Below, piece by piece: positions 40,361 to 41,548 of a DNA stretch of 64,000 nucleotides. The stretch lies in the NCBI RefSeq assembly GCF_011058255.1, contig NZ_JAALFH010000067.1, positions 59,724-123,723 of the forward strand, written 5' to 3'. The stretch is from Thioalkalivibrio sp. XN8 (lineage in GTDB: Bacteria > Pseudomonadota > Gammaproteobacteria > Steroidobacterales > XN24). Every line of letters begins with the position of its first letter. Position 1 is the first letter of the stretch. The notes beneath the pieces were generated by a model. That model was not told the DNA's origin and ran no database searches. It saw only the letters and a program-made list of their open reading frames with translations. The position numbers were made by a program, and so were the translations under genes.

Positions 40361-41548
40361 GTGACAGGTCCAGACGCATACCGTCATTTCGGCATGAGCC
40401 GGAACCCGTTCGTGGACAAGCGCCCGGAGCAGGACTTCTACACGGGTCCACAGCACCGTGACGCCCTGTCCTTCCTCGATCATGCGCTGCATTCCAACGA
40501 CCTGCTGCTCGCGCTGACCGGCGAACCCGGGGCGGGCAAGCGCACCGCGGTCGAAGTGGCGCTGGCGCGCGGGCTGCCGGATGCCGTGGTGGCGCATGTC
40601 GCCGGGCTGCCCGGCGAGCCCGAGGAATTCCTGTCCGCGGTGCTCAGCGGGTTCGGCTTCGGCGGCGTGAGCGCCAGTCGCGACGAGATGCGCGGCCTGC
40701 TGACGGTGTTTCTCAGTCACCAGCGCCAGAAGAAGGTCACCACGGTCATCGTGGCGGCGGGCCTGGAGGCGGTGCCCGGCAGCCTGATGGAGGAACTCGG
40801 CTGGCTGTCGCTGCTCGAGCCGGTCCGGGTCGGGCGCCTCAAGCTGGCGCTGCTCGGCGACGAGCGGCTCGAGCGCCAGATGTACGCACCCCGGATGCAG
40901 GCCCTGCGGCAGATGGTCCGGTGGCAGCACCGGCTGGAGCCCCTCGGCGTCGACGAGACCCGGGACTATCTCGAGTTCCACGCCGAAGGCGCGGGCTGTC
41001 CCGAACCGGGGGCGCTGTTCCTGCCGGATGCGGTGGGACACATTCACGCGTACGCCTCGGGCCTGCCCGGCCGGATCGACGAACTCGCCCAGCAGGCTGT
41101 CGAGGCCGCGGCGGCGGCCGGCGACACCATGGTCCGGCGGCTGCACGTACAGCGCCAGGGCGGCACCGAGGGCGCGGCTGCGGCGCCGCGCCGCCGCAGC
41201 GTCGCTTCGATGGACATCCTGCTCGAGCACGAACCCAAGGCCCGTATCCGGCTCAATGCGCCGCGCCTGCTGCTGGGCCGGCACCCCTGGAACGACGTCC
41301 AGCTCGACCACGACTCGGTCAGCCGCTACCACGCCATGCTGGTGCGCGAGGGCGGCTACTGGACGGTCGTGGACCTCAACAGCACCAACGGTATCCGCGT
41401 GAACGAAAGCGAGGTGCGGCAGCAGCGCCTGCACCACGGCGACGTGGTCCATATCGGGCGCTTCCGCCTGGTGCTGAACGAGGGGGCCGGGCCGAGCCGC
41501 ACGTTGCCGGCGGTCGGCGACGTGTCCGATACCGTCATCCTCGGCTAG
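40361..41548 (+). CDS. ExeA/GspA-like AAA domain fused to FHA, degenerate Walker motifs
   Basis: A 395-residue cytosolic protein. Residues 5-250 resemble ExeA-type AAA modules (YRHFGMSRNPF, then GEPGAGKRT at 54-62). The Walker A has Arg61 where Ser or Thr is needed, and the Walker B position reads VIVAAGLEA without the acidic pair, so ATP hydrolysis is doubtful. Residues 283-378 form a canonical FHA domain (GRHPWND, SRYHAML, NSTNGIRV) that should bind phosphothreonine. The start is GTG 40361, behind GGGAG; a longer ATG frame exists at 40304 without a good site. Confidence 0.82.
   Translation: MTGPDAYRHFGMSRNPFVDKRPEQDFYTGPQHRDALSFLDHALHSNDLLLALTGEPGAGKRTAVEVALARGLPDAVVAHVAGLPGEPEEFLSAVLSGFGFGGVSASRDEMRGLLTVFLSHQRQKKVTTVIVAAGLEAVPGSLMEELGWLSLLEPVRVGRLKLALLGDERLERQMYAPRMQALRQMVRWQHRLEPLGVDETRDYLEFHAEGAGCPEPGALFLPDAVGHIHAYASGLPGRIDELAQQAVEAAAAAGDTMVRRLHVQRQGGTEGAAAAPRRRSVASMDILLEHEPKARIRLNAPRLLLGRHPWNDVQLDHDSVSRYHAMLVREGGYWTVVDLNSTNGIRVNESEVRQQRLHHGDVVHIGRFRLVLNEGAGPSRTLPAVGDVSDTVILG

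Follow-up and report, generated by a model that had tools for sequence, protein, structure and literature searches.

An AAA+-FHA protein with degenerate Walker motifs and a conserved C-terminal threonine tail in Thioalkalivibrio sp. XN8

The gene, its domains and the predicted fold

The window, the whole stretch of 64,000 nucleotides of Thioalkalivibrio sp. XN8 DNA that was analysed, carries a gene for a protein in which an AAA+ module is followed by an FHA domain (Table 1). We refer to its product as the window protein, to its genome as G000, and to six other genomes of the same family as G001 to G006. The GTG start is found at the matching place also in the orthologues from two other genomes of the genus. 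The AAA module comprises the core and the lid and spans residues 8–258; the Pfam family AAA_22 matches it at residues 46–173 with 29.9 bits (cut-off 27), and the FHA family (PF00498) matches residues 304–366 with 71.4 bits (cut-off 20.7).

Table 1. Coordinates of the gene and its features within the window
Feature	Position	Strand	Basis and remarks
AAA+-FHA protein gene (window protein)	40361..41548	+	395 aa; GTG start, TAG stop
AAA+ core, residues 8–180	40382..40900	+	Cdc6/TnsC/MuB-like fold in the AlphaFold2 model
Walker A GEPGAGKR, G54 to R61	40520..40543	+	Sequence; Arg61 replaces Ser/Thr
Walker B VIVAAG, V129 to G134	40745..40762	+	Sequence; both acids gone; relatives have Asp-Glu at 133–134
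AAA+ helical lid, residues 181–258	40901..41134	+	Model; Gly where group A has Arg after Pro236
Linker, residues 259–280	41135..41200	+	Low confidence: pLDDT 75 and 53 in blocks of 10 across 261–280
FHA domain, residues 281–374	41201..41482	+	Pfam 71.4 bits; match to GarA 6i2r_B
C-terminal tail motif D390-T391-V-I-L394, predicted FHA ligand	41528..41542	+	Conserved Thr; 392–394 modelled as a strand

The translated reading frame bore out what an initial annotation, made from the DNA letters, had said of the motifs. Where a catalytic AAA+ protein is expected to have GxxxxGK[ST] as Walker A and hhhhD[DE] as Walker B, the window protein has GEPGAGKR and VIVAAG, so that the Ser/Thr of Walker A is Arg61 and the acidic pair of Walker B is Ala133-Gly134. 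The FHA motifs are complete, as had been claimed: Arg307, Ser321, Arg322, His324, Thr342, Asn343 and Gly344 are all kept, of which we take Arg307, Ser321 and Asn343 to be the phosphothreonine-binding Arg, Ser and Asn. The roles of the FHA Arg and Ser residues in phosphothreonine binding are described in PMC3953482.

Structure prediction of the N-terminal half had been proposed as a check. The AlphaFold2 model, built from a 52-row alignment with a mean pLDDT of 89.7, contains a complete AAA+ fold with its helical lid and a complete FHA fold. Residues 9–272 of the model superpose on Cdc6 (1fnn_A) with a Z-score of 20.1 and 3.0 Å over 249 residues (VIA-align 2, as for the other superpositions), and much the same part is matched by TnsC (7plh_A, Z 18.6) and MuB (8xvb_A, Z 18.5). 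Residues 281–374 superpose on GarA (6i2r_B) with a Z-score of 17.4 and 1.5 Å over 94 residues, at 40% identity. The window protein thus shares the AAA+ fold with Cdc6/Orc1, TnsC and MuB but differs from them in that the identity is 13–21% over the aligned residues (for these and adjacent matches), the catalytic residues are missing and no DNA-binding part was seen. Judging from the model, the motor fold of the window protein is intact despite the missing catalytic residues.

Recent loss of Walker motifs within a constrained family

The orthologues of G001 to G006 are 79, 59, 41, 38, 39 and 35% identical to the window copy. The orthologue of G001, a member of the same genus, has GEPGAGKST and VIVVDE, with both Walker motifs intact. 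At the DNA level, CGC (Arg61) in G000 stands against AGC (Ser) in G001, and GCG GGC (Ala133-Gly134) against GAC GAG (Asp-Glu). Of the seven orthologues, those of G001, G003 and G004 retain Walker A; it is lost in the other four, which have Arg (G000, G005 and G006) or Gln (G002). Only the G001 orthologue retains the Asp-Glu of Walker B. Because the closest relative is intact and the state of the motifs varies among the orthologues, the loss is recent and recurrent. The initial annotation had named homologues with intact Walker motifs in close relatives as evidence against its reading of the protein as a scaffold that no longer hydrolyses ATP, and, taken literally, the 79% identical orthologue of G001 is such a homologue. 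From the sequences it follows that the loss is young and has been repeated, which does not mean that the window protein hydrolyses ATP. The claim of lost hydrolysis therefore stands in part: hydrolysis by the window protein is very unlikely with the Walker B acids and the Walker A Ser/Thr absent, but the loss is not a settled feature of the gene, given the intact closest relative and the variable orthologues.

Between G000 and G001, dN/dS is 0.205 for the AAA core, 0.127 for the lid and 0.062 for the FHA domain. The gene is under purifying selection, and on these values the motif losses are not chance or a sequencing accident. The half that was proposed to read phosphothreonine is intact and is the most constrained part of the protein. 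The open reading frame is intact in all seven orthologues, and the three genomes of the genus share the gene order around it. Genes for EF-G-like, CBS and SAM-hydrolase-like proteins, named from their sequences, recur beside the orthologue within the genus as well as in two or three other members of the family. A functional tie to the upstream VOC and PerM genes was considered and rejected. These genes are direct neighbours in the genus (three genomes) but separate from the AAA-FHA gene in G003, and the parts of G004 to G006 that were read did not contain them, so that the link looks like inherited gene order.

The AAA-FHA architecture, for which a search of other genomes had been suggested, turned out to be widespread and multi-copy in the order, and the neighbourhoods that were read gave it no connection to secretion genes. 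Matches to the window protein at E <= 0.001 were obtained in 55 of the 59 genomes searched, its own included, many of them to one half only. We collected 82 full-length AAA-FHA frames and placed 81 of them in a tree, leaving a frame of 1073 residues (L054_-_4104) out of the tree and the counts. In this tree, which was made by a quick method with long-branch warnings and an arbitrary root, and in which a profile search has oversampled group A, a slow clade of 47 rows (group A) can be set apart from the remaining 34 rows (group B), which include the window protein and are not necessarily one clade. Both Walker motifs are kept in 45 of the 47 group A rows, the other two having Glu-Glu in Walker B, against 3 of the 34 group B rows. 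Group B evolves fast, and Walker A is kept in 21 of its 34 rows in the tree. Despite the intact closest relative of the window protein, the wider pattern across group B is one of erosion of the ATPase motifs.

A further 70 proteins were assigned to the groups by their Walker state, which makes Walker counts that include them circular and leaves tail counts unaffected; with this reservation, all 65 group A rows have Thr or Ser at Walker A position 61. Arginine follows Pro236 in all 65 of them, whereas the window protein has Gly there. The FHA residues Arg307, Ser321 and Asn343 are identical in all 151 proteins compared. In each of the seven family genomes, a group B copy is accompanied by an intact group A copy of full length. 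Group A proteins such as that at G000:C22:56143-57276 are like the window protein in domain order and FHA residues, at about 27% identity, and unlike it in their intact GEIGxGKTT and DEAQ and in a tail motif that does not exceed chance. The window protein belongs to an order-wide set of eroding paralogues beside an intact one. Outside the order, AAA-FHA frames were seen at nine of ten fetched loci, and D[ED] is kept in Walker B in eight of the nine (by eye).

Several further observations concern individual members. Five AAA-FHA proteins of one family (L112, L114, L118, L119 and L120) have no recognisable Walker residues, yet their FHA residues are present, as is an STE[LMVF]L tail. Two group A paralogues, L021:6078-7286 (G000:C22) and L025, adjoin purK/purE-like genes (two neighbourhoods, read from N-terminal sequences), and in G000 genes for an amidoligase and a class I glutamine amidotransferase follow. 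The neighbours of other group B genes offer only loose leads; one such gene is flanked by genes for HEAT and TPR proteins and a glycosyltransferase, and others by small lipoprotein-like genes. Next to a second group B paralogue (L106:6048-8110 and L111:2450-4512) lie a lipoprotein-like gene whose product contains VYMLLDTSGTY and a membrane-protein-like gene of about 475 residues with no Pfam family over the cut-off.

The C-terminal threonine tail and the FHA proteins of the genome

A conserved C-terminal Thr-x-x-hydrophobic tail is a feature that the initial annotation did not contain. Thr391 and a hydrophobic residue at +3 are kept in all seven orthologues, in a tail that is otherwise poorly conserved (67% identity between the window protein and its nearest orthologue). 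The motif of the window protein, DTVIL, is of the kind accepted by FHA domains as a ligand, a threonine with a hydrophobic residue at +3. According to PMC5549992, the residue at pT+3 steers FHA binding. Residues 392–394 form a strand both in the model of the full protein and in that of a 115-residue construct of FHA domain and tail; in the latter, the last five residues have a mean pLDDT of 74, compared with 58 for the preceding ten.

We counted the pattern [DESQ]T..[LIMF], which was written after about a dozen tails were known, in the 60 residues past the FHA domain and obtained expectations by shuffling each tail. In the tree set, it occurs in 24 of 34 group B proteins (4.3 expected) and 4 of 47 group A proteins (3.4 expected). 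The 70 held-out proteins, drawn largely from two families and hence not independent, exclude frames of more than 900 residues; here the pattern is present in 51 of the 52 from group B, where shuffling gives 12.0, and in 1 of the 18 from group A, where it gives 3.1. Four of the seven orthologues in the clade of the window protein escape this strict pattern, as Gly, Arg, Thr or Ala precedes their T..[LFI]. The rows of alignment A4 were picked for the T..hydrophobic motif, and the near-invariance of its Thr is partly by construction. Outside the order, four of the nine AAA-FHA proteins also match the loose tail pattern, as judged by eye and without a chance level. A link between Walker loss and tail gain was not supported by an independent-pairs test, which had too few pairs (4; median p 1), and the two may both simply mark old subclades. 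A different Thr motif, a stretch of the [NS]DT[LV]P type, ends most group A proteins of one family (L132-L134, L138-L143, L145 and L148).

By analogy, the conserved tail resembles the self-binding switch of GarA and OdhI. In GarA, according to PMC5448819, an ETTS motif lies outside the FHA domain and becomes its ligand on phosphorylation. The window protein shares with GarA and OdhI the FHA fold and a Thr motif outside it as a possible self-ligand, but the motif is N-terminal in GarA and C-terminal here, and GarA is without an AAA+ module. With the NCBIfam model for OdhI the window protein scores 59.2 bits, under the cut-off of 200. Type VI secretion Fha proteins are not known to have an AAA+ module, unlike the window protein, which scores 34.6 bits with the TagH model, under the cut-off of 120.25. 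They are like it in being FHA readers in a bacterial Ser/Thr kinase pathway, exemplified by Agrobacterium Fha-TssL in PMC3953482, which also reports a measured phosphothreonine interaction in this proteobacterial kinase-FHA pathway.

No Ser/Thr kinase gene lies near the gene of the window protein, in agreement with the initial annotation, which had suggested looking for a Hanks kinase elsewhere in the genome. Eight PF00069 kinase matches over the cut-off were found in G000, together with five FHA matches and three PP2C_2 matches. On the same contig and beyond the window, an FHA protein of 230 residues is encoded directly downstream of a PP2C gene (G000:C33:22678-24219; L213:679-2220) and has EKTLVL just after its FHA domain. 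Among 20 FHA loci in 18 genomes, most of them picked from the matches of an earlier search, a T-[ML]-[VI]-[IL] stretch like EKTMVI or EKTLVL follows the FHA domain directly in 18 (by eye). The stricter [DESQ]T pattern is found at none of the 20, as Lys or Arg precedes the Thr. This separate FHA family lends independent support to the suggestion that these bacteria habitually place a Thr-x-x-hydrophobic ligand next to an FHA domain.

A possible phosphothreonine-dependent adaptor

We propose, with a probability of roughly one half, that the window protein is a phosphothreonine-dependent adaptor derived from an AAA+ ATPase, with a predicted built-in switch at Thr391 and a group A paralogue that keeps the ATPase role. 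The AAA+ half, whose fold is kept in the model, has lost the residues for hydrolysis and probably also those for the binding of Mg-ATP, and would most likely serve as a platform for binding or oligomerisation. The FHA domain, with its complete set of binding residues, would read phosphothreonine on a partner. By analogy with GarA and OdhI, one of the Ser/Thr kinases of the genome might phosphorylate Thr391, and the phosphorylated tail might then bind, in cis or in trans, to the FHA domain of the same protein or of another copy, thereby turning partner binding off or leading to self-assembly. The ATPase role would stay with the intact paralogue elsewhere in the genome.

The AAA+ half might instead still be a nucleotide switch, binding ATP or ADP without hydrolysis, or hydrolysing ATP in some species, so that the nucleotide state controls partner binding. 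The P-loop lysine is kept in the window protein (Lys60) and in 76 of the 86 group B rows, GxxxxGK[ST] in 72 of the 86 (both counts circular for rows assigned by Walker state), and the nearest orthologue is intact at both motifs. The commonest change of Walker B in group B is from D-E to E-N (E in 60 and N in 60 of the 86), a change that, going by Walker B mutants, would spare binding more than hydrolysis. Walker A is retained by many group B proteins, and for these at least a switch that binds nucleotide without hydrolysing it is a serious alternative. Against it, the window protein has Arg61 and lacks both Walker B acids, and the Ser/Thr at 61 is lost in three further orthologues as well; we consider such a switch rather unlikely.

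Another possibility is a mixed AAA+ ring in which the window protein would sit, itself inactive, next to the intact paralogue from group A, in the way that inactive ORC subunits sit beside active ones. Copies of both groups in seven of seven family genomes and a fold closest to Cdc6/Orc-type AAA+ proteins would fit such a ring, but the genes of the two groups are unlinked, and AAA+ positions that are fixed in group A, among them the Arg that follows Pro236, are in several cases not kept, which makes it a somewhat weaker candidate again. As for the tail, it might be a plain docking strand that works without phosphorylation.

Decay of the gene, with the missing motifs as early damage, could be imagined from the recent losses within the genus and the fast evolution of the group, but we reject it on the dN/dS values, which stay far below 1 throughout (0.205 for the AAA core, lower for lid and FHA domain), and intact frames in seven of seven orthologues with shared synteny in the genus (three genomes) make it very improbable.

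A type II secretion assembly factor of the ExeA/GspA kind, with an FHA domain exchanged for the peptidoglycan-binding part, deserves equally little credence. ExeA/GspA has a peptidoglycan-binding domain after the ATPase. The resemblance to ExeA stated in the initial annotation holds only for the AAA half, an AAA_22-type ATPase module as in ExeA/GspA and in the XrtA-associated ATPase, and the best NCBIfam match of this half is the XrtA/PEP-CTERM ATPase model TIGR03015, which we take to be a relative of ExeA. The score of 99.5 bits is, however, far under the cut-off of 324.5, and Pfam finds FHA-type and AAA domains only, with an FHA domain instead of the peptidoglycan-binding part. No type II secretion gene was seen around the window copy, as already stated in the initial annotation, or around the orthologues, and no ExeB/GspB partner gene was recognised around the window copy and its six orthologues with a crude gene caller and N-terminal sequences. 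With no support from the domains or from the neighbours so read, the ExeA and type II secretion role was rejected.

Returning to the phosphothreonine-dependent adaptor, inactive AAA+ proteins and FHA self-switches are each already known; in the literature searched we found no paper that joins the two or that deals with AAA-FHA proteins, although three papers mention both terms. More tentatively, the Ser/Thr kinases of the order might act in a network whose recurring unit is an FHA domain with its own Thr-x-x-hydrophobic ligand, placed on eroded AAA+ proteins and on the PP2C-adjacent FHA protein. The eroded AAA+ proteins would then form a family of pseudo-ATPases that act as phospho-switched adaptors beside an active paralogue. 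If this is true, these proteins would show, as a natural series, how an ATPase is stripped stepwise of its catalytic residues while the phosphothreonine reader and its own ligand stay. The series includes a pair of species whose AAA-FHA proteins are 79% identical, one intact and one not, which would allow a direct test of what is left of a motor when it turns into a scaffold. It would also point to a network of kinases, phosphatases and FHA proteins in bacteria that have been little studied.
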